From NCBI GenBank assembly GCA_030710605.1, contig CP092886.1, positions 159,138,000-159,201,999 of the forward strand: 64,000 nt of DNA, in the 5' to 3' direction. Made by a program: the position numbers and the translations under genes. Positions within the stretch are counted from its first letter, which is position 1. Each line of letters opens with the position of its first letter. This DNA is from Cordylochernes scorpioides (lineage: Eukaryota; Arthropoda; Arachnida; Pseudoscorpiones; Chernetidae). Positions 2,982-40,440 of the stretch are shown here, piece by piece. Below the pieces are notes generated by a model. It had not been told where the DNA came from. It searched no databases and was given only the letters and a program-made list of their open reading frames with translations.

Positions 2982-5842
2982 AACTTTCAACCCAATCGAG
3001 CAATTTAGGGATGCTTTGGAAAGGCGGAGAGTATTTTTCAATCTTTGTCTTAGGAACGCAAATGAACTTAGGGCTGCCATAATATAGGAACCGCCATCGG
3101 AGGTATTTTATAGCAGGTTGACAAATTGAGACGGGTTTGTGGGTTATGCCTATGCTCCAAGGATTAACATGTGCTTTATTGAAGGAGTTTTCACAATTTT
3201 GTTTTCTAAGACATATTTATAAGTGATTCCTCTACAACGTGATCTCTAGAAAAAAATCTGTGATGTATAATAGGTACAATACTTGTAAAGCTATTGATCT
3301 TGAATATCTGAAACTTGGAAATGATTTGAATTTTCATTTGATTGAAAATGGTTCATAAAAGAAGGGAAATATTTTGTGATGTCAATTGTGCACTGTTGTT
3401 AAACATTTAATGTTTTCCTGGTATCAAGAACTAATATGTATTATTTATAAAGAATGGAATACTTATAAAGAAATTTCTGTTTTTTCTGAGTCTGGGTTTG
3501 AATCACAATCGAGGATTTGAGGTTCTATCGAGAACCTTTCCATTGGTCTTTTTCAATTCTTATTTGAATTCCTCTGAAAGTTTCAACAATGAATTCTGTT
3601 ACAGCTCTTGCATGGATGCTAGAAACAACATTTAAAATAGAGTTTATCAAAAGATTTGTTTTGGATTTATAAAATAAGTAGCATTTAATGGTCTCTTTTG
3701 GAAATGTTCTTATCACAAATTTCCTTTTTCGGAATAACTATTGTAAAGTTTGAGTAATAAATAGATTAAAAAGTGGTTATATATATAAAGTACTGAAAGT
3801 AGATTTTTTTTAGTTCATTAAATTGATAAACCCAAGTCAATTCAAGCGTTTAGGATATCTGTGGCCAATATTTTATCATGCATTCCTACAGATTAGAGCT
3901 CCCCCCTCTCTCTCTACAAACAATTTTAAATTATATTTTCAAATTTGATATCTAATTTTCCTAACGATTCTCTCCATGCAAACTCAACAAACATAATATT
4001 TATTTCTTTACTTCAGTTGTCCATCGAGCTGGGAAGAGATTGCCCGATTAGTTTCCATTCACATTATCGCTGAATGTTTAATTCAATTCAATATGAAGAT
4101 ATATTGGGTGAAAGAAGTGTAAATTTAAACGCATTTTATTGAGACTCACAATCCCTATTTGAAAATGTATTTTATTTAGATTTCACACAAAACCCCTTCT
4201 AGCCTTTAATTATGGTTTACGAAAATATAAAACTCCCTTTTAAAAAACTCCCAATAATAGATCTGAATTGAAATCCAAAGGCTCATTTACATTTAAGAAA
4301 GTGGAACCTTTTTGTTTCCTAAACCCTTTTCAAAATGCATTTTTAATATCAATTCAAATTCTTTGATTAAAGGAATACGATATTCGGGATTCGAATAATT
4401 AAAATAGGCCTTTCTTAATTGAATTAATGTTTATTTTTATAAAGAGGTATATATCGGTTTATTGGGATTTACAATTGATTATTTATTCTTTCTCTCTCAC
4501 GACTCTTACAATCCGGGTGGCATAAAGTTGAGGCAAATTAATTAACTCACCAGCCCTATTTGATTCTTAAATGTATTCACTCGAAATTGGGTTTAAAATG
4601 GAAGCAATATCGCACCTCGGGGGGGATTCTGCTTTTATTATCTCAACAGAAGATCATGTTAAGAAAGTGGATTTCTTCTGTCTCCAATAAAAGGTGTCCT
4701 GGTATTTCAATGGGGAGATTCACAAATTCGGCAAATGCAATTTATGCTCGAGATTACAACAGCGCCAATTATATTATCGGATCAAATTTATAATACCAAT
4801 ATATGAAAAGCTTTTACAAATTATTTATCTGTTTTTATTATATGGATTAAGATAAATATCTTCAAACTATTCCCAACATTCACAATTCCAGCATATATAT
4901 AAATGCAAATATATTCATTCCTTTGTTCTATTGTATAAAATAATTTCTTGAGTTTTGCTTTTGCCTTAATTTGGTTAAAATATTGAAGTAGGAATCTCCA
5001 TATAATTTTATATTTGTAAAGAACACGATATGTGAGAAGGTAATAAAGATTTCAGTAACATCTTTGTATATTAATTTAATTGTTGTGTTTTGTTAACCAG
5101 GGGAGCCTCTCTCTCTGGAAAGGTTTTCATTGTTACATAAAGAATCCTCAGTTTGTATGCTATTGAGAGGTCCTTGGTTCCAGCGGCACCTTTTTTTTTT
5201 TTTTTTGAGTTTTCATTTCTTCATAGCCTCTTATTCAGACCATCAGCCTAATTCTTTGTTTACTATTCCCATTTACTCTCTAGAAATTTCTTCGTCGATC
5301 CAAAATAAATAGCGATGAAAATGGACAACGTCAAAGGGAAAATTCGGTGTATTTTCGTGAACGGTATGCTGCCACAGCTGCTGGGCAAATGGCTTGGGGA
5401 ACCTCAGTGTAAGGAAAATATATAAATTCAGTAGAAAACATACAAGACAGTCATATATGTAAAAAACATAAATAAAATACACAAGCCATCTAAGTCCAAA
5501 TATACATTTTGATCTTGGACAAAAGGCCGAAAAGCGATATATAGTTTCATAAGGTTTTAATAGCGCAAACAAGATATCAGGAGAAAAATTATAAGGCGAG
5601 AATTTTCTTCAATTATAAATCATTTCAGATGCCTTCGAAACTTTTGGTCCATCAAATGGTGTAAAATTACAAGAAACGCTGGTACAAAGATTCTTATAAA
5701 CAGGCCGTAGTAATTTTTTTGGAAAGATTATATATCATATTATCTAGATGAAATTCATGTAGCACTTCAATGGAAACAAATCTCTTTAAAAATGCCTTTA
5801 AATAAACGAATACCGTATTATGTAATAATAAAAATGTATATA
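2982..5842. other. Non-coding stretch, no supported gene
   Basis: The sequence is AT-rich with a CT microsatellite near 3901 and a T-run at 5191-5206. A regulatory-looking island (CCATCGAGCTGGGAAGAGAT, then CCCGATTAG) lies near 4020-4080. A 36-codon ORF starting at 5315 (MKMDNVKGKIRCIFVNGMLP...) runs to a stop at about 5425 and is followed by nothing recognisable. It may be a TE remnant. Otherwise I see nothing. Confidence 0.5.
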
Positions 5843-5846
5843 ATAT

Positions 5847-6308
5847 TGTAACGTGGATGACAAGGCCAAGGTACCAGAGTAAAGTTGGGGAAAGACGGGT
5901 GGACTCCAGCGGCTCCTGTTGCCATGTGGCAGGCGCCAAAAACAGCATTCCTTTGTGGGGGAGGACAGAGTCTGGTTACATCTGCCACAAGGAGAAGACG
6001 TGGCGACTTGCCTCCGGGCGTGTGGATGATCCTGTAAGGAGAGCCTGACATCGGAGCGGTCTACAAGACGGTGTAGTCCTGGCTGGACGTGTATTGTGTG
6101 GAGTGGAACGCTTCACAAGAGTGACATCCACGGCGCCAAGGATTCTTCTGCCGGGGAGGTTAAAGGCAAGTCCAACAGATTGTTCTCCTTCTGTTTAGAG
6201 CCATAATAAATCGCTAACTTTAGCTGTATCCCTTCGAATTCACGTGTGTATCTTTGTGGCATTCTGAGTAGACAAGGTACACGAAGAGCGTCTGGGTACG
6301 ACCTAACA
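5847..6308 (+). mobile_element. Solo LTR (462 bp) of an LTR retrotransposon
   Basis: The segment begins TGTAACGTGG and ends GACCTAACA, the TG...CA termini of a Ty3/gypsy-like long terminal repeat. It is flanked by a direct 4-bp duplication, ATAT at 5843-5846 and 6309-6312. It is far more GC-rich than its surroundings and has an AATAAA at about 6205, in the place expected for the poly(A) signal in R. No internal retroviral region lies next to it, so it is best read as a solo LTR left by recombination. A stretch of about 30 bp near 6105-6140 (CTTCACAAGAGTGACATCCA...) reappears inside the Helitron at about 28485-28515. Confidence 0.7.
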
Positions 6309-6419
6309 ATATATATGCAAGGAATTATATATGTGCGAATTCAATAAAGTATGGTCAGCAAGAGAGCAATAAATACAAATGGTGCTAATTAAAAAACAAC
6401 TATCAACTAGGCGAGGCTG

Positions 6420-6655
6420 AAATATTGTAGTAAAGGTCAATAAGGTTTATTGTCCAGTTTATGATATTGAGTTTTTGGGAAACCAAGGCTTCCTTTGGTG
6501 CTTTTTCCGCACGTTGTTGCGATGAACTCTTGCTTGATTTAGGTTGAAGTTTTTCATGCATCTCCGATGCTCAGTGAGAAATATGCCTACTGTTCTCACC
6601 CACGTCATCGCATCCACTGCATGGGACAGAGTAGACAGCATTGGGGGGGGAGAAG
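6420..6655 (-). pseudogene. Penelope-like element, GIY-YIG endonuclease fragment (frameshifted)
   Basis: On the minus strand two overlapping frames read AVYSVPCSGCDDVGENSRHI and then EHRRCMKNFNLNQARVHRNN. They match in order the VY.VPC..C...GE..R motif and the later EH+...K.FNL.....VH block typical of the C-terminal GIY-YIG endonuclease of Penelope-like retroelements. A frameshift and a stop separate them, so the gene is dead. Known of the family: the GIY-YIG nuclease nicks target DNA for insertion. The neighbouring reverse transcriptase piece lies on the other strand, so these are two fragments or an inverted rearrangement. Confidence 0.5.
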
Positions 6656-6776
6656 GGGGTCCATTGTTGCGTTATTGTGGCGAAATGTCTGTGGCCTAGG
6701 TCAGGGATACTGCTGAAATATATGTTGATTCCAAATTTAAGTAAGGTGCGAGCTATGGAGTTGGATATGGGAGAGT

Positions 6777-7450
6777 ATGGAATTACATAAGTGGTTTTAT
6801 AAACTCTTCGTTTTCGGGGTTCTTTGTAACTTTACACCAGTTGATGGCACGAAATGTTCGAGAAGGAATGTGAATGATTTACAATTAAACAAACCTTTAC
6901 CTTTTCGTTTTTTATCGAGATATATCTTCTCGGCGTTTATAAATTTATCAAAGCAACTGTTCAAGCAGATCCGAGTCTCCCCAATGGGCAGCTGCCTATC
7001 GACCATTGCGGCAGCCATGTCCTGGATCAACTCCAATCATCGCTCCGATATCTTTCTCTGGCATCGATACATTGATGACGTCCCGTGAATCTGCCCAATA
7101 AATCATCCCGACCTCATCATAGACACCTCGAACCCCTACAGCACAAGCATTTCATTCTATCTCGAAATTGAATATAATCACATATCATTCTCAGATTTTA
7201 TATATTCAAAAATACAAACCAGCGCCAAATTGGATATAACTGTATTTTATAAAAATAACATCACCCAACATAAACTCATTTCTCTTCTCCATGTCCCAAC
7301 AACTTTAAAACCAACGTTGTAGGAACGCCCTCAAAATAAACACCCACCCACTATTCCCTAGGATATTAGGGGATTATGTAAAACAAACATCATCAGACAT
7401 ATCAATGCATCAGGGGCTCTATCCCCTCAATCCATAATACATAAAATTGA
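6777..7450 (+). pseudogene. Penelope-like element, reverse transcriptase fragment
   Basis: One reading frame shows, in order, a Q/R-x-x-x-PMGSCLS motif (family: G.PMGSPLS), then FLWHRYIDDV containing the YxDD catalytic box, a TGA stop at 7086-7088, and further in the same frame SFYLEIEYNHISFSDFIY...LDITVFYKN. This follows the Penelope-like RT layout (..F..E.E....FLD......T.VYRK). More in-frame stops follow from about 7320. The N-terminal RT motifs are missing. It is a degenerate partial copy. Confidence 0.6.
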
Positions 7451-8935
7451 ATATATATATATATATTGAAGAGATTTGGGAATTCTATATTTTATATATA
7501 AATATATAGGGTATATATTTGTTTTTTTCATTGTAAAAAAATATATATCTCCAAATTCAGAGGTTATTTGTACTGCGTGGAACAGAAGCAGGTGTTGCTG
7601 AGCTTAAACATCTAAATGGTTTATATGCCTGGAGGGGATATCTAATTTCCTATATTTCTCTGCACTGTTGAGATCAATTGAAGAGGTCTAGCTCTGCAAA
7701 CAAGAGTTAGGTAGGGATAGTTTATTAAGCGATTTTGTCTAGGCCTATGATTGATCCATATTGCATCCTTGACATAGAGAAATGCTCAATATTGGTTTCT
7801 ATGTTATTTAAGCCTTCTTTATGTCTCTATAATATATGTAGTTAACCCTGGTTCCAGATGTCTATATATCGTATATAGTGGCAGTTGTACCAGATTTGAC
7901 TATATTAGAGAGACAGGAAGGACGTTTGAAGGACGAATATAAAACAATATAGAGCATCTCTCTATGTAGAGGATGCAATAAGGAATAATCATTGACCTAA
8001 ACAAAATCGCTTACTACGCTATCCCTACCTGAATTTTATATATAGTTAAACACACGAAACGCAATACGTTTAAAAAGGTTTGAAAAAATAGTTTCAAATT
8101 GCAAACTAATAAATATTTGTCAAATTTTCAAATGACTAAAAATTAGAAACACGGATACAATTAACAATAAATACTCATTCAATTTCTCTAGTAGTTTTAA
8201 GAAAAAATGTTCCTCACATTTTTCCTGATGGATATTCTGTAATGTGAAGAGAGTTGAATTTTTGAAAGATTTGAATGTGCTGCGCCATTCATTTTGTTGT
8301 TCGAGCGGTCGTACAGAACTTCCAATTCTCAGGACGTTTTTTTTTTTTTTGCTTCGAATATTGAGGCAACGGCTGTCACTTTATTATATTCTCCACCAGT
8401 AGATGAACAGTAACAGGAATTATAAACATTAAAAGCTCTTTGTTGAATTGAGTTTCTACATAATGTATAGCTGCAAGATGCTAGAAACAAAGAATGGATA
8501 GATCCTTTCAATTAAAAATAAATATTGAGGGAAAATATAAACAATCACTAGAATATATGACAAGACTTTTAATTTGTGTTTCTGTTTTATTAATCTAAAT
8601 TCTAAAATTTCAGAAAGGCCCGTGTGTTGAGGTGGAGCGAAGGTAAATAATGGACCACCTCGAGTAAGCCAAAGATTGAATAGCGCCCCCATTCCTAGAG
8701 ATCTCAGATAAGCCTCTGCTCTTCATTATGGATCAGAGCTTCCAAGCCAAACCACTTTATATCGATAGAAATCACTAAATCTCTACTTTTAGATATTTCA
8801 AAATACCTTTTGTGTTTCTCTTAACCAAAAATAAATCTAATAAAAAAATTGCAACTATTTTCAACTTTAAAAATGTATCTCTCTAATTGTAACTTTCGTT
8901 TTAAAAAAAGGAAAGGGATTGAAAGAGTTTCAACA
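7451..8935. other. Non-coding, AT-rich, probable old TE debris
   Basis: I find no gene. A TA microsatellite lies at 7451-7505 and a T-run at 8338-8350. Segments near 7560-8040 contain short inverted pieces (AAGCGATTTTGTCTAGGCCT near 7728-7748 and an inverse resembling it near 8000), suggesting a decayed foldback element. There is nothing else to report. Confidence 0.4.
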
Positions 8936-9100
8936 TCTATATATATATAGATGAATGTATGTCTGACTTAGCTTTATGCCTGACCAAACTACTCATCTGA
9001 TTGCAATGAAACTTTGGAAAGCTGTTTATTATACAACCGAGAAGGTTTCTGGTTTGAATTTCATTTGAAATAAATTTTATTTGCAATTTTATTTGCAAAT
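8936..9100 (+). mobile_element. Helitron-like 5' terminus (partial)
   Basis: TCTATATATATATAGATGAA at 8936, preceded by A, followed by TGTATGTCTG, resembles the 5' ends of the Helitron-like elements at 10164, 27888 and 50548 (minus). I could not identify a matching hairpin-CTAG 3' end on this strand, so only the terminus is called. Confidence 0.45.
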
Positions 9101-9769
9101 TTGTCAATTTCACTCGCTAGTAGTCCTCTCGCAAAATCTGGCGAAATTGCATTTGTAAATTTCTAAAATTCTAAATATGGGTTCTAAATATAATAATTTT
9201 TCAAGTATTCAATATATTTATAATAGCGATTATTTCTGAGAAAGGATTTAATGATACAATTTTCGAGAATATCGTTGTAAAACTTTCTATATTTTATATT
9301 TTAACACATCTTATAGTGTATTTAAAATATAATACATGTTTTAAAATTACTTTTAGAACTATTTTTATTTTAAATACTTTAAAATAAAATTAAAAAAATA
9401 TATTAAACCTTTTTTAAAATACAGATTAGAGAATTATTTTAAAAGTGTTGGGAGAGGAGATAAATTCAGTGGTGGAGAAAGGTTACAAACATCAATTTAT
9501 CCTGACAAGAATAGATTCAGTAGGGAGTGGATGTTTGCCCCGAAAATATTGTTTACCAAACGTTCGTTAGGCTTCGCTCGGGTAACAACCATGCGAAAAT
9601 ATAAAAAGCCAAATTTTGACTCTAGATGTGCGGCATATATTTATAAACCAACTAGAGTGAGAGGTGTCAGGATTTGGCATTTTATTTTAAATAATAACAC
9701 CTTATTTCTGGTCTTTGAGGTAGAACCTACATCACGCTGACGAGGACCAACAACCCGAAACACGTAGGT

Positions 9770-9925
9770 GGTTGTCTTTTCTTGATTTATCAAGAAATTG
9801 GGTTGGCCAAATGCATTATATATTATGGACAAACCTGAATAAAAGTTTAGTTGATATTTGTTCAACTAGATGCACTCTGCGACTTAAAATGCTCATGTGT
9901 GCGGTCAGGATATGCATTTTCAATT
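9770..9925 (-). mobile_element. Half copy of the palindromic MITE family
   Basis: The segment runs from CAAGAAATTGGGTTGGCCAA to GCTCATGTGTGCGGTCAGGA. It matches one arm of the foldback MITE at 27549-27788 (CAATTTCTCGATAAATC... GCTCATGGGAGCGGTCAGGG). It ends just before the tRNA-carrying Helitron. The core where other copies carry GCGCCATCTAGTGG is degenerate here. Confidence 0.5.
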
Positions 9926-10390
9926 CCAATATATATATTATAGACGTATGACCCGGCTTCGCCCGAGAATTCCCCCGATTGCAATTTCCTTCATACTGAA
10001 AGTACATCAATAATAAATATTAGACGTGCCATAAAATAGCAAAACAGAAGTAACACATAAACTACAGGAAAAAAGTGTAAATGATGGCAAAAATTGTATT
10101 ATATTAGTGTTTAGGTATTTGATTTAATTAATATAGTTGATATAATAATATATATTTATATTATCTCTATATATATAAAAGTCAATGTCTGTCTGTTTCG
10201 CGATAAACTCAAAAACTACTGAACCAATTAGTACCAAATTTTGCATGTCGCTTTTTATAAACCTGAGGAAAATTTTCGGCTACATTTTGATTAGTATTTT
10301 TGGCTATTTCTTTTTTTCATTTGAAGAACTTTTTTTTACGCGGAGTAATCCGGAATGGAATGAATACCCAAATATGGCCATTTTTTATAA

Positions 10391-10461
10391 GCATCGGTGG
10401 TTCAGTGGTAGAATGCTCGCCTGCCACGCGGGCGGCCCGGGTTCGATTCCCGGCCGATGCA
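10391..10461 (+). tRNA. trnG(GCC): tRNA-Gly (anticodon GCC)
   Basis: This is a full cloverleaf. The acceptor stem GCATCGG/CCGATGC pairs perfectly with discriminator A. The D-arm contains GGTTCAGTGGTAGAA. The anticodon stem CTCGC/GCGGG flanks loop CTGCCAC with anticodon GCC. The T-arm CCGGG-TTCGATT-CCCGG is intact. Box A (TGGTTCAGTGGT) and box B (GGTTCGATTCC) match Pol III consensus. A run of T begins directly after the discriminator base and can terminate Pol III. The gene looks functional by sequence. It is unusual in lying inside a Helitron-like element rather than in ordinary flanks. Confidence 0.97.
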
Positions 10462-10471
10462 TTTTTTTTTT
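10462..10471 (+). terminator. Pol III T-run terminator of the inner tRNA-Gly
   Basis: An uninterrupted T-run follows the last tRNA base. The equivalent run is present, as A's on the plus strand (10756-10764), downstream of the minus-strand tRNA copy, so the element mobilised the gene together with its terminator. Confidence 0.85.
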
Positions 10472-10764
10472 TCAATTTTTAAAACTCCTTTATATTATAT
10501 AAAATATAAATATATATTATTTTATCAACTATATTAATTAAATCAAATACCTAAACACTAATATAATACATTTTTTGCCATCACACACACTTTTTCCTGT
10601 AGTTTATGTGTTACTTCTGTATTGCTATTCTATGGCACTTCTAATATTTATTATTGATATACTTTTAGTATGAAGGAAATTACACCCAAGGGATTTCTCG
10701 GGCGAAGCCGGATCATACGTCTAGTATATAATATAAATGAGTTTTAAAAATTGTAAAAAAAAAA

Positions 10765-10835
10765 TGCATCGGCCGGGAATCGTACCCGGGCCGCCCGCGT
10801 GGCAGGCGAGCATTCTACCACTGAACCACCGATGC
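10765..10835 (-). tRNA. trnG(GCC): tRNA-Gly (GCC), outer copy, box B variant
   Basis: It is identical to the inner copy in all stems and the anticodon loop. The one change is in the T-loop, which reads TACGATT instead of TTCGATT: the conserved U at position 55 is replaced by A. This base is part of box B and of the D-loop/T-loop contact, so transcription and folding may be weakened. It is otherwise a complete 71-nt tRNA-Gly(GCC). Confidence 0.9.
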
Positions 10836-11132
10836 TTATAAAAAATGGCCATATTTGGGTATTCGTTCCATTCCGGATTACACCGCGTTAAAAAAAGTTC
10901 TTCAAATAAAAAAAAAAATAGCCAAAAATACTAATCAAAATGTAGCCGAAATTTTTCCTTCGGTTTATAAAAAGCGACATGCAAAATTTGGTACCAATTG
11001 GTTCAGGTGTTTTTGAGTTTATCGCGAAACAGACAGACATTGACTTTTATATATATAGAGATATATGCTATAATATATTTCAATTATATCCCCTTATAGC
11101 TGTAGTATGACAACCACAACTGTAGACGCAAT

Positions 11133-21870: not shown

Positions 21871-23010
21871 TTAAGCTGGAGCAGTACTAGAGGTAGGAGC
21901 ATTGAAAAATTCGTTTGACGTGGCTCTGCTCAGCGCTTGATTCAGAATGACGTTCTTGAGCTGTGTCTAGCATCCTTTATGTCTTTCCACGGTGGTTGAA
22001 ACGACATTGCTGCGACGGACTCATCTCTTGGAATTTTGACTAGAGGGCTAAAATGGCGAAGTCCATTTTTTAATTTTTGGACTTTTTTCAAAGCTCTTTC
22101 TTTTAAAATATTTACAAAATACTAGTCCAAATTTCATGACTGGCGTTAATGTTCTCGCCGGGACCTTTTCATTTCCTCTATCTACAGTAAAAATATTTAA
22201 TGTATAACTCTCCGATGTGGGTTTGTGCCACTCGGTGTCACAGTAGTGTCACTCGCACGGAGTCCTACATCCATTTGGCTGGAGTAACAATATCCCACAA
22301 TCCCATTTTCAAGAAATTCGGTAAACACGCGGCTTGTGGCCGAACACACGACACAAAATAAAATATTATTTTTAACATAAATATAATTTCTATAAGTGAA
22401 CTTTGTAGGCGTAGAGTGTTCAGAGAGTAAAATTAAAATTGCGTTGAAAACTGCAATAAATATTTGGTCTAAATAAAATAATATTTTCAGGTTATAAATT
22501 CTGTTCTAGACAATTTGAGACAAAATTGTGTTTAGAATACCAGAATTCACCAAGGGACCCGTCTCTCGGGTAAAATATCAGCGGGAGAGGGATTGCCTGA
22601 GATATATTTGAAGATCCAAAGCGAATGCTCATTTTGATAAATTTCGCCTCAAATTGTCTGGTCGAATGTTTATAACACACGGAAGCCAACTATTTATTAA
22701 TAAAAAAGAAACTCATCGAGAAAGAGTTTATAAATTTATTTATAATTAGTTAGTTTCCCCGTTGTATAAACATATATATATACTATTCCAATTTTATATA
22801 TATACGATAAAATATATTATGTTTATTTATTATTTCTCTAAATGGTTGTTTATCAATAGTTTTCGCCAAAAATATTATGAAAACCAAATGCTATTTAACT
22901 AGTTAGATTTTGTAGTCATGTTAATTTAGATTTATATGTTTCTCTATCAAGTTCTAAGATAACTATAAAAATTGAGGACTCATTCATCCACGAACATGGC
23001 TATCGCCTAT
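21871..23010. other. Non-coding stretch
   Basis: I find no gene. The minus-strand frame at 22492-22689 contains no recognised motif. TA runs are present near 22775-22805. Confidence 0.4.
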
Positions 23011-23458
23011 CTCACGTCTGTTCAATTCTACCTAAACACCGTTCTAACTCACGTCTGTTCAATTCTACCTAAACACCGTTCTAACTCACGCCTGTTCAAT
23101 TCTACCTAAACACCGTTCTAACTCACGCCTGTTCAATTCTACCTAAACACCGTTCTAACTCACGCCTGTTCAATTCTACCTAAACACCCTTCTAACTCAC
23201 GCCTGTTCAATTCTACCTAAACACCGTTCTAACTCACGCCTGTTCAATTCTACCTAAACACCGTTCTAACTCACGCCTGTTCAATTCTACCTAAACACCG
23301 TTCTAACTCACGCCTGTTCAATTTTACCTAAACACCGTTCTAACTCACGCCTGTTCAATTCTACCTAAACACCGTTCTAACTCACGCCTGTTCAATTCTA
23401 CCTAAACACCCTTCTAACTCACGCCTGTTCAATTCTACCTAAACACCGTTCTAACTCG
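23011..23458. repeat. Minisatellite, 37-bp unit, about 12 copies
   Basis: The unit starts CTCACGCCTGTTCAATTCTA and recurs every 37 bp with very few changes (T for C in the first two copies, CCCTT for CCGTT in two). The low divergence points to recent expansion or homogenisation. Confidence 0.97.
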
Positions 23459-25033: not shown

Positions 25034-26674
25034 CCTACAATGTGAGTCTACTTTCACTACTTTCTACAATGTGAGTCATCTTTCACTATTTTCTACAATG
25101 TGAGTCTACTTTCACTATTTTCTACAATGTGAGTCTACTTTCACTATTTTCTACAATGTGAGTCTACTTTCACTATTTTCTACAATGTGAGTCCACTTTC
25201 ACTACTTTCTACAATGTGAGTCTACTTTCACTATTTTCTACAATGTGAGTCTACTTTCACTATTTTCTACAATGTGAGTCTACTTTCACTATTTTCTACA
25301 ATGTGAGTCCACTTTCACTACTTTCTACGGTCTACTTTCACTACTTCTACAAGGTGAGTCATCTTTCACTACTTTCTACAATGTGAGTCTACTTTCACTA
25401 TTTTCTACAATGTGAGTCCACTTTCACTTTCACTACGTTCTACAATATAGTTCTACTTTCACTACTTCTACAAGGTGAGTCTACTTTCACTACTTTCTAC
25501 AATGTGAATCTACTTTCACTACTTTCTACAATGTGAGTCTACTTTCACTACTTTCTACAATGTGAGTCTACTTTCACTACTTTCTACAAGGTGAGTCATC
25601 TTTCACTACTTTCTACAACGTGAGTCTACTTTCACTACTTTCTACAATGTGGGTCTACTTTCACTACTTTCTACAATGTGAGTCTACTTTCACTACTTTC
25701 TACAATGTGAGTCTACTTTCACTACTTTCTACAACGTGAGTCCACTTTCACTACTTTCTACAAGATGAGTCATCTTTCACTACTCTTTACAACGTGAGTC
25801 TACTTTTACTACTTTCTACAAAGTGAGTCTACTTTCACTACTTTCCACAATGTGAGTCTACTTTCACTACTTTCTACAACGTGAGTCTACTTTCACTACT
25901 TTCTACAACGTGAGTCTACTTTCACTACTTTCTACAACGTGAGTCCACTTTCACTACTTTCTACAAGGTGAGTCATCTTTCACTACTTCTACAACGTGAG
26001 TCTACTTTTACTACTTTCTACAAAGTGAGTCTACTTTCACTACTTTCTACAATGTGAGTCTACTTTCACTACTTTCCACAATGTGAGTCTACTTTCACTA
26101 CTTTCTACAACGTGAGTCTACTTTCACTACTTTCTACAACGTGAGTCTACTTTCACTACTTTCTACAACGTGAGTCTACTTTCACTACTTTCTACAATGT
26201 GAGTCTATACTTTCACTACTTTCTACAACGTGATTCTACTTTCACTACTTTCTACAACGTGAGTCTACTTTCACTACTTTCTACAATGTGAGTCTACTTT
26301 CACTACTTTCTACAACGTGAGTCTACTCTCACTACTTTCTACAATGTGAGTCATCTTTCACTACTTTCTACAACGTGAGTCTACTTTCACTACTTTCTAC
26401 AACGTGAGTCTACTTTCACTACTTTCTACAACGTGAGGCTACTCTCACTACTTTCTACAATGTGAGTCTACTTTCACTACTTTCTACAACGTGAGTCTAC
26501 TTTCACTACTTTCTACAAAGTGAGTCTACTTTCACTACTTTCTACAACGCGAGTCTACTTTCACTACTTTCTACAACGTGAGTCTACTTTCACTACTTTC
26601 TACAACGTGAGTCTACTTTCACTACTTTCTACAACGTGAGTCTACTTTCACTACTTTCTACAACGTGAGTCTAC
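25034..26674. repeat. Minisatellite, 29-bp unit, about 57 copies
   Basis: The unit is GTGAGTCTACTTTCACTACT followed by TTCTACAAT or ..AAC. It is the largest array in the window at about 1.64 kb. Left copies favour TATTTTCTACAAT and right copies CTACTTTCTACAAC, so the array has two sub-families. Occasional units are 26-28 bp or carry GTGAGTCATC. Every unit carries GTGAGT, a match to the 5' splice site, and a T/C-rich tract. The array edges are TCAAGTTCCATCC on the left and CAGGTTTGAACCCGTC on the right. Confidence 0.97.
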
Positions 26675-27887: not shown

Positions 27888-28594
27888 TCCCTATATATAT
27901 AAAAGTCAGTGTATGTATGTATGTATGTATGTGGGTTTCTATGTCGGCTATACACGTCCACAATACGTAACTAATCTGACTGAAATTTTAACAGTATATT
28001 GAGTAGAATCTGGAAAAACTTATAGTGAAAATTTCAGGTCTCTATCCCGAATATTCTTCGAATAATTGCAAATTTGCCTTTTCGCTCGCAAGCAGCGCCT
28101 CTAGCGGTGAAGATGGGAGGTGATATCAGCTGACCTAATGTACATGTAAAACGTGCTTTGACAGGACATAGAGAAAAATCTGGAAAAGATATTCATCGGA
28201 TTTTTAGCCAATAAAAATAAAATTGACAGGTTCTGGACAAATATAGTTGTTTTTTTTTTAGTCAGAAAATGATGATGACAATATTGCTGTATCATGTTCG
28301 ATTAACAGATACAAAATTATATCGGGAAATATTCCAAAAATCTGAGATCACGGGTGAAGCCAGTTCATTTTTAGTGTGCAGGAACAAAATTCTAACAGAA
28401 AAACATTCATTCGAGCAGAAGACACAAAGCCAGATCATCTCTTTATAAAAATATCGCTTCTCAGACACAAATTTGGAGCGGGACGTTTCACAAGAGTGAC
28501 ATCCACGGCGCCAATTTATATTTGTAACGAATAGTATTTGAATAAAAACATTTAATCGGGTAAAACCTGGGCGTTGCCCGGGTCATTCGGCTAG
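27888..28594 (+). mobile_element. Helitron-like element, 707 bp, non-autonomous
   Basis: It starts TCCCTATATATATAAAAGTC, preceded by A. It ends with hairpin CCTGGGC-GTT-GCCCGGG, then TCATTCGG and CTAG, followed by T. These are the classical Helitron ends with AT target. It has no coding capacity. Inside, GTATGTAT repeats follow the 5' end, and near 28485-28515 about 30 bp are shared with the solo LTR at 5847-6308. Confidence 0.85.
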
Positions 28595-39242: not shown

Positions 39243-40440
39243 CATTGCCATTGGAGAGAAATGTCATCAGGTGTCCTATAAACAATATAGAATATATATA
39301 TATAGTGCCGTTGGAGAGAAATGTCACCAGGTGTGCTATAAACAATATAGAATATATATATAGAGTGCCGTTGGAGAGAAATGTTACCAGGTGTGCTATA
39401 AACAATATAGAATCTATATATAGAGTGCCGTTGCAGAGAAATGTTACCAGGTGTGCTATAAACAATATAGAATATATATATATATAGTGCCGTTGGAGAG
39501 AAATGTCACCATGTTTTCTATAAACAATATAGAATATATATATATAGTGCCGTTGGAGAGAAATGTCACCATGTTTTCTATAAACAATATAGAATATATA
39601 TATATATAGTGCCGTTGGAGAGAAATGTCACCAGGTGTGCTATAAACAATATAGAATCTATATATAGAGTGCCGTTGGAGAGAAATGTTACCAGGTGTGC
39701 TATAAACAATATAGAATATATATATATAGTGCCGTTGGAGAGAAATGTCACCATGTTTTCTATAAACAATATAGAATATATATATATAGTGCCGTTGGAG
39801 AGAAATGTCACCATGTTTTCTATAAACAATATAGAATCTATATATATAGTGCCGTTGGAGAGAAATGTCACCAGGTGTGCTATAAACAAGATAGAATATA
39901 TATATATAGTGCCGTTGGAGAGAAATGTCACCATGTTTTCTATAAACAATATAGAATATATATATATAGTGCCGTTGGAGAGAAATGTCACCAGGTGTGC
40001 TATAAACAATATAGAATATATATATATATAGTGCCGTTGGAGAGAAATGTCACCAGGTGTGCTATAAACAATATAGAATCTATATATATATAGTGCCGTT
40101 GGAGAGAAATGTCACCAGGTGTGCTATAAACAAGATAGAATATATATATAGTGCCGTTGGAGAGAAATGTCACCATGTTTTCTATAAACAATATAGAATA
40201 TATATATATAGTGCCGTTGGAGAGAAATGTCACCAGGTGTGCTATAAACAATATAGAATATATATATATAGTGCCGTTGGAGAGAAATGTCACCAGGTGT
40301 GCTATAAGCAATATAGAATCTATATATATAGCGCCGTTGGAGGGAAATGTCACCAGGTGTGCTATAAACAATATAGAATCTATATATATAGTGCCGTTGG
40401 AGAGAAATGTCACCAGGTGTGCTATAAACAAGATAGAAGC
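39243..40440. repeat. Minisatellite, about 60-bp unit, about 20 copies
   Basis: The unit contains GTGCCGTTGGAGAGAAATGT followed by CACC, a variant block, CTATAAACAATATAGAA and a TA tract of variable length. Two variants alternate: AGGTGTGC (A) and ATGTTTTC (B). Around 39.49-39.97 kb the order BBAA'BBA suggests a roughly 240-bp higher-order unit. TA length changes shift the period between 58 and 62 bp. All long frames here on both strands come from the array. Confidence 0.96.

Follow-up and report, generated by a model that had tools for sequence, protein, structure and literature searches.

A Helitron family carrying a complete tRNA-Gly(GCC) gene at high copy number in a pseudoscorpion genome

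Why would a short repeat with the ends of a rolling-circle transposon contain a whole tRNA gene, and is that gene cargo of the transposon or a host locus in which transposon ends have come to lie? The question is raised by positions 9940 to 11061 of a 64-kb stretch of Cordylochernes scorpioides DNA (here called the window), where a first-pass annotation had described a Helitron-like transposon, present in two copies, with a tRNA-Gly(GCC) gene in each. The reading that we favor, at a probability of roughly 0.88 and on the evidence of sequence comparison, is that both copies belong to a young, high-copy, non-autonomous Helitron family (F1) that captured a tRNA-Gly(GCC) gene and was amplified by rolling-circle transposition.

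Two nested copies, each with a tRNA gene

Over the whole window, ARAGORN predicts two tRNAs, both tRNA-Gly(GCC), at 10391–10461 on the plus strand and at 10835–10765 on the minus strand. Rfam scores them at 66.7 bits (E 2.6e-12) and 63.0 bits (E 2.7e-11), respectively, and the two programs agree with the earlier claim of two full-length genes with intact or nearly intact boxes. The plus-strand gene is identical to the family consensus, begins at base 228 of its element (copy A) and is followed by a T-run resembling a Pol III terminator, just as had been annotated. The minus-strand gene (in copy B) differs from it by a single base, a T-to-A change at position 53 of 71, which lies in the T-loop and in what we take to be the B box.

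Alignment and the family search described below identify copy A as a complete 561-bp non-autonomous Helitron (10164–10724, plus strand; A|TCTC...CTAG|T), which starts at A|TCTCTATATATATAAAAG and ends at CTAG|T after a weak hairpin region (10696–10724, plus strand). It lies in inverted orientation within copy B, which runs on the minus strand from 11061 to 9940 and is split by it into a 5' part (10725–11061; element bases 1 to 337/338, opening A|TCTC at 11061) and a 3' part (9940–10163) that ends in CTAT instead of CTAG. The two copies are identical at 528 of 560 aligned bases. The interval 9940–11061 was correct as the outer ends of copy B, and copy A is a separate element nested inside it. 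The Helitron termini attributed to both copies are present at both 5' starts and at the 3' end of copy A, but not at the 3' end of copy B.

Copy A sits between an A and a T without target duplication, and because its flanks, when joined computationally, read as unbroken family sequence, we regard it as a clean A/T insertion. Its insertion site in copy B corresponds to the position of an AT palindrome (consensus 328–351), of which copy A itself has an imperfect version at 10488–10511 (plus strand), 27–50 bp 3' of the tRNA. Together with flanks of about 36 bp on its upstream and about 34 bp on its downstream side, the tRNA of copy A forms a module (10355–10495, plus strand) that recurs in a second short family (F2) and at Rep/helicase loci.

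A dispersed family with Helitron ends

The genome of origin comprises 2.62 Gb in 24 contigs. A search with the 561-bp copy A gave 45 matches from the 40 scored of 1,343 first-look candidates, and 40 of these matches are near full length at 94–100% identity. Pooled with further searches using the tRNA-free 3' part alone and the 5' part alone (40 candidates scored each), they define 105 distinct places on 22 of the 24 contigs, at which the termini recur; the family is multicopy, as had been proposed, and its ends are not peculiar to the window. The first-look candidate counts (1,343, 1,173, 178, and 894) are mutually inconsistent and are not taken as copy numbers. Plasmid records searched with copy A gave no match. 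Several F1 places are clustered on contig C6 at 51.87–52.05 Mb and 55.44–55.47 Mb.

We read 80 copies, namely 40 from the copy-A search, 20 of the 27 new places from the 3'-part search and 20 of the 38 new places from the 5'-part search; the F1 consensus is 564 bp long. ARAGORN predicts a tRNA in 74 of the 80 (70 Gly(GCC), two Gly(TCC), and two Ser(GCT)), a share that leans toward tRNA-bearing copies because copy A or a part of it served as the query for all of them. The gene is nevertheless not confined to the window pair, and other copies do not generally lack it: predictions were obtained in 40 of 40 copies from the copy-A search, 17 of 20 from the 3'-part search, whose query was blind to the tRNA, and 17 of 20 from the 5'-part search. 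A tRNA or tRNA remnant is present in 79 of the 80 copies, as five of the six without a prediction keep part of the tRNA, among them all three from the 3'-part search. L066, L071, and L097 have 18-, 24-, and 35-nt deletions within it, L065 and L089 break inside it, and L099 is without consensus 189–451. The deletions and breaks in the first five may indicate that a folded tRNA is prone to deletion.

The ends of F1 are those of Helitrons. Most of the 40 listed copies have the termini TCTC... and ...CTAG, which agree with the Helitron 5' TC and 3' CTRR; 5' ends are degenerate in L026, L029, L031, and L038, and 3' ends in L013, L032, and L040. Of the first 30 copies, 26 have an A immediately to the left and 28 a T immediately to the right (four without the A, two without the T), in line with the A/T insertion that the annotation had anticipated, and the nested case in the window adds insertion between A and T without target duplication, as in Helitrons. 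Chance resemblance of the ends was considered and rejected. Two subfamilies are set apart by their 3' ends, CATACGTCTAG and CATTCGCCTAG. The annotated 3' hairpin is weak. Its stem is only 5 bp (CTCGG/CCGGG) in the common form, one pair is lost in copy A, and for neither of the two is folding better than that of shuffled sequence (z 0.46 and -0.04 for the TACGTCTAG ends); the TTCGCCTAG end reaches z -1.69 with a different fold.

With termini and insertion site in agreement and the hairpin weak, we file F1 as a probable Helitron of very high copy number whose cargo is a complete tRNA gene. Its 5' TC, its 3' CTAG (CTRR), its insertion between A and T (free of target duplication in the nested case), the co-occurrence of Rep/PIF1-helicase genes in the genome and its head-to-tail neighbors are shared with other non-autonomous Helitrons; it differs from them in its weak 3' hairpin and in its cargo, a whole Pol III gene with flanks instead of a gene fragment. 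The head-to-tail neighbors are a partial second copy that begins 2 bp past the end of L026 and a copy minus its first 4 bases that directly adjoins L061, and they fit either rolling-circle products or neighboring insertions. Helentrons (Helitron2) insert at T-T and have an endonuclease domain. F1 was not assigned to them, given its insertion between A and T and a Pfam scan that found no endonuclease in two frames of the Rep/helicase locus L056, at most a putative partner of F1.

A tRNA module in several contexts: passenger or working part

The locus L056 contains four tRNA copies with the same flanks as in F1, three of them Gly(GCC) and one Ser(GCT). Used as a query, its module gave 894 candidates, of which 40 were scored and five (L104–L108) represent the F2 context. 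A tRNA is predicted in all five, four as Gly(GCC) and one, in L107, as Cys(GCA). An end ...CATTCGGCTAG|T comes after the module in L105, L106, and L107, and a hairpin CCCGGGC-GTT-GCCCGGG was seen by inspection in L106 and L107; in L104 and L108 another Helitron-like element follows the module instead. Comparison of the F1 and F2 modules shows 3 differences in the 36 upstream bases, 2 in the 71 tRNA bases, and 3 in the 42 downstream bases, where all of them lie at consensus 336–342; beyond the module no alignment between F1 and F2 was seen. The apparent 5' start of F2 is TATTAA, unlike the usual TC.

The third context is that of the Rep/helicase genes. At L056 the Ser-read tRNA ends 222 bp before the ATG of a Helitron-type N-terminal frame, and later frames, split by stops or shifts, match Helitron_like_N and PIF1. 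In L101 and L102, a pair with 99.9% identity, a tRNA-Gly(GCC) is predicted at the same place upstream of a similar frame; the corresponding tRNA of L103 has lost bases and gives no prediction, and three other tRNAs are predicted in the locus. The module is evidently common to F1, to F2 (a second short family, its 3' end of the Helitron kind) and to sites upstream of Rep/helicase frames. In L056 and L101–L103 a tandem peptide repeat of 23 residues is present in the N-terminal frame that lies near the Rep/helicase gene.

Genes with a Helitron_like_N domain are common in this genome: all 150 scored of 1,987 candidates are above the Pfam cut-off, with many frames of 1,384–1,386 codons, compared with 0 of 14 control genomes. 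Five of the seven Rep-gene loci read (L053, L054, L055, L057, and L059) have readable 5' ends and start with TCTATATAGATAATACCG after differing flanks, which is unlike the F1 start, and no Rep/helicase element with the termini of F1 was found among the seven. At L058, another Rep-gene locus, ARAGORN predicts a tRNA-Thr(GGT) at 8786–8861 (minus strand), about 1.9 kb beyond a 1,468-codon frame.

The recurrence of the module in otherwise different contexts, including upstream of Rep/helicase frames, is what commends an alternative that we hold to be rather unlikely, namely that the module is a working Helitron part selected at the level of the element, such that lineages with an intact module spread better. 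Its roles may include Pol III/TFIIIC recruitment, chromatin opening, or service as a landing pad. Tested for selection, the 60 copies compared gave no signal. With 15 sites dropped at which one variant occurs in at least 10% of copies, substitution is about equally fast in the tRNA and in the remainder of the element: rates were 1.97% in the tRNA and 1.71% outside at GC non-CpG sites (p 0.48), 3.19% and 2.25% at CpG sites (p 0.20), and 1.03% and 0.91% at AT sites (p 0.66), slightly higher inside each time with no difference significant. Without the site drop, and with the variable 3' end excluded, the rates are 1.56% in the tRNA and 1.81% outside at non-CpG sites, and 3.19% and 1.85% at CpG sites. 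Of 59 fully aligned tRNAs, 11 equal the consensus and 32 depart from it by one change at most; in two, the differences number 19 and 26. None of the 15 widely shared variant sites falls in the tRNA, which would suit a selected part, but only about two would be expected there (71 of 564 bases). Also contrary to a selected part, the first tRNA base is changed in all five fetched F2 copies, L107 reads Cys(GCA), the tRNA beside the L056 Rep frames reads Ser(GCT), and at L103 the tRNA in that place is not predicted. Because the tRNA changes as fast as the remainder of the element, in single copies it looks like a passenger that is not under visible selection.

The distribution of breaks bears on the same alternative. 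The 80 copies contain 33 alignment breaks in 28 copies, and 23 of these breaks, in 19 copies, fall at consensus 331–357, at or beside the AT palindrome (consensus 328–351, 27–50 bp downstream of the tRNA). Various Helitron-like 5' ends, or another F1 copy, adjoin the breaks; the nest in the window is one such case, and similar inverted joins occur in L083 and L087. The cluster may reflect target choice for AT palindromes, or it may hint that a Pol III site attracts insertions. It favors a working module to the extent that several breaks join Helitron-like 5' ends next to the tRNA, but the hotspot is the palindrome itself, and 14 of the 19 hotspot copies belong to the 20 obtained with the 5' part, a search that may favor them, against five among the other 60. 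The hotspot copies also include four C6 copies that look like segmental duplicates. The insert at the palindrome of L095 contains a B-box-like stretch, GGTTCAAATCC, noticed by eye, which may be a further remnant of a tRNA within a Helitron.

How many intact genes the module has produced can be judged from exact matches. The exact 70-nt tRNA occurs 893 times on the forward and 899 times on the reverse strand (1,792 in all; reversed-letter control 0), and an independent 35-nt sequence that spans the join between the module and the head of the tRNA has 1,529 perfect matches in the genome (control 0). Of the 80 fetched stretches, 15 contain the exact tRNA and 26 the strict 35-nt junction, and scaling the genome matches by these shares gives a total of roughly 5,000 to 10,000 modules, a rough estimate as the copies are non-random and some stretches hold more than one module. 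A tRNA-Asp pattern meant for comparison had 0 genome matches, a result that is uninformative as a yardstick. With a cloverleaf, A and B boxes, a T-run, the Rfam score of 66.7 bits for copy A, and an exact sequence repeated 1,792 times, the family tRNA is canonical in its consensus and a candidate for the functional gene that the annotation had envisaged, with more than 1,000 letter-perfect gene copies in the genome. That so many perfect genes remain would follow from recent amplification and from founding copies with a canonical tRNA.

These numbers invite two broader readings. The first, which seems to us doubtful, is that the tRNA gene is a standing part of several Helitron lineages (in no fewer than two short families, as well as ahead of Rep/helicase frames), that it forms a Pol III site beside the insertion palindrome, and that the tRNA-Gly(GCC) supply of the genome is in effect held in transposons. 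The second, which we consider improbable, is that module-borne genes are now the main or only host source of tRNA-Gly(GCC). The 40 bases upstream were read for 20 perfect tRNAs (every fifth of the first 100 places, all on contig C1), and the module upstream flank, which indicates the module and not a whole element, was present in all 20; 17 are of the F1 kind and three are close to GTGAATGGAATAAATACC, the kind found in F2 and L056. Although a count of 20 of 20 speaks for such a supply, in a sample restricted to C1 it allows up to about 14% of genes (one-sided 95%), or up to about 250, to lie outside modules.

Origin, precedents and other repeats of the window

The favored reading, a Helitron family with a captured gene, implies the following course. 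The F1 ancestor would have captured a tRNA-Gly(GCC) gene, presumably from a host locus, along with flanking sequence of about 36 bp upstream and about 34 bp downstream. At each transposition the tRNA would then be copied as internal cargo and the element inserted between A and T, probably mobilized in trans by a Rep/helicase protein of the kind encoded in the genome, although among the seven loci read none was found with the ends of F1.

tRNA-derived SINEs start with a tRNA head and move by reverse transcription. F1 resembles them in that a tRNA with an internal promoter, its A and B boxes in place, is part of a short multicopy repeat. A SINE, or a SINE inserted in a Helitron, is nonetheless a very improbable origin: the element does not begin with a tRNA head, its tRNA is internal (base 228 in copy A, and base 226–242 among the displayed copies with both ends), full length and provided with its own T-run, fixed Helitron ends with a spacing of about 561 bp surround it, insertion is between A and T, and F2 has the same tRNA flanks with no SINE body or tail seen. 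The annotation of the tRNA as internal cargo of a rolling-circle element was, on these grounds, well founded. Least probable of all is a host tRNA locus with unrelated Helitron ends that then spread by segmental duplication, for although some copies do look like segmental duplicates (L093, L094, L096, and L097 on C6, which have their left flank and insert in common), the element boundaries are identical across different contigs with unrelated flanks, at 105 places on 22 of 24 contigs.

Fragments of protein-coding genes are well-known cargo of Helitrons, and miRNA genes linked to bat Helitrons have reportedly been found; in F1 the cargo is an entire canonical Pol III gene, of which 1,792 perfect copies are present. 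Such a family is a natural experiment in which the effects of transposon-driven tRNA amplification on tRNA dosage, Pol III/TFIIIC sites, and genome architecture can be followed. It also allows a test of whether Helitrons spread better with a captured non-coding gene, and it advises caution when tRNA genes are counted in large genomes.

The annotation knew of no described family of this kind, and the open-access PMC full texts yielded no closer precedent for a tRNA-carrying Helitron family than one partial and unconfirmed case. A tRNA-Cys(GCA) cluster on chromosome 5 of Arabidopsis thaliana is annotated over ATREP5/HELITRONY1D/ATREP10B (PMC10701932). The likeness is that tRNA genes overlap Helitron annotations; the cluster, however, is described there as a local tandem array for which three tools gave no reliable Helitron prediction (PMC10701932), whereas F1 is scattered through the genome and has demonstrated termini and insertion sites. 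The available part of PMC10294476 contains nothing on tRNA-carrying Helitrons. Dada elements are also DNA transposons associated with tRNA genes, but they reportedly target tRNA and snRNA genes for insertion (PMC3706591, PMC8869645), whereas F1 carries a tRNA gene with it.

The window holds further repeats. A Helitron-like element without a tRNA lies at 27888–28579 and starts at A|TCCCTATATATATAAAAG; by inspection, its relatives stand directly 3' of the tRNA module in L104 and L108. A second tRNA-free Helitron-like element, TCTATATATATATATATAATTGAATGTCTGTCTG ... CATCCGCTAG|T, occupies 50548–48620 on the minus strand and has internal repeats of about 568 bp. Long minisatellite arrays are found at 39246–40438 (60-bp units), 25035–26674 (29 bp), 1857–2387 (66 bp), 2383–2982 (48 bp), and 23007–23457 (37 bp).
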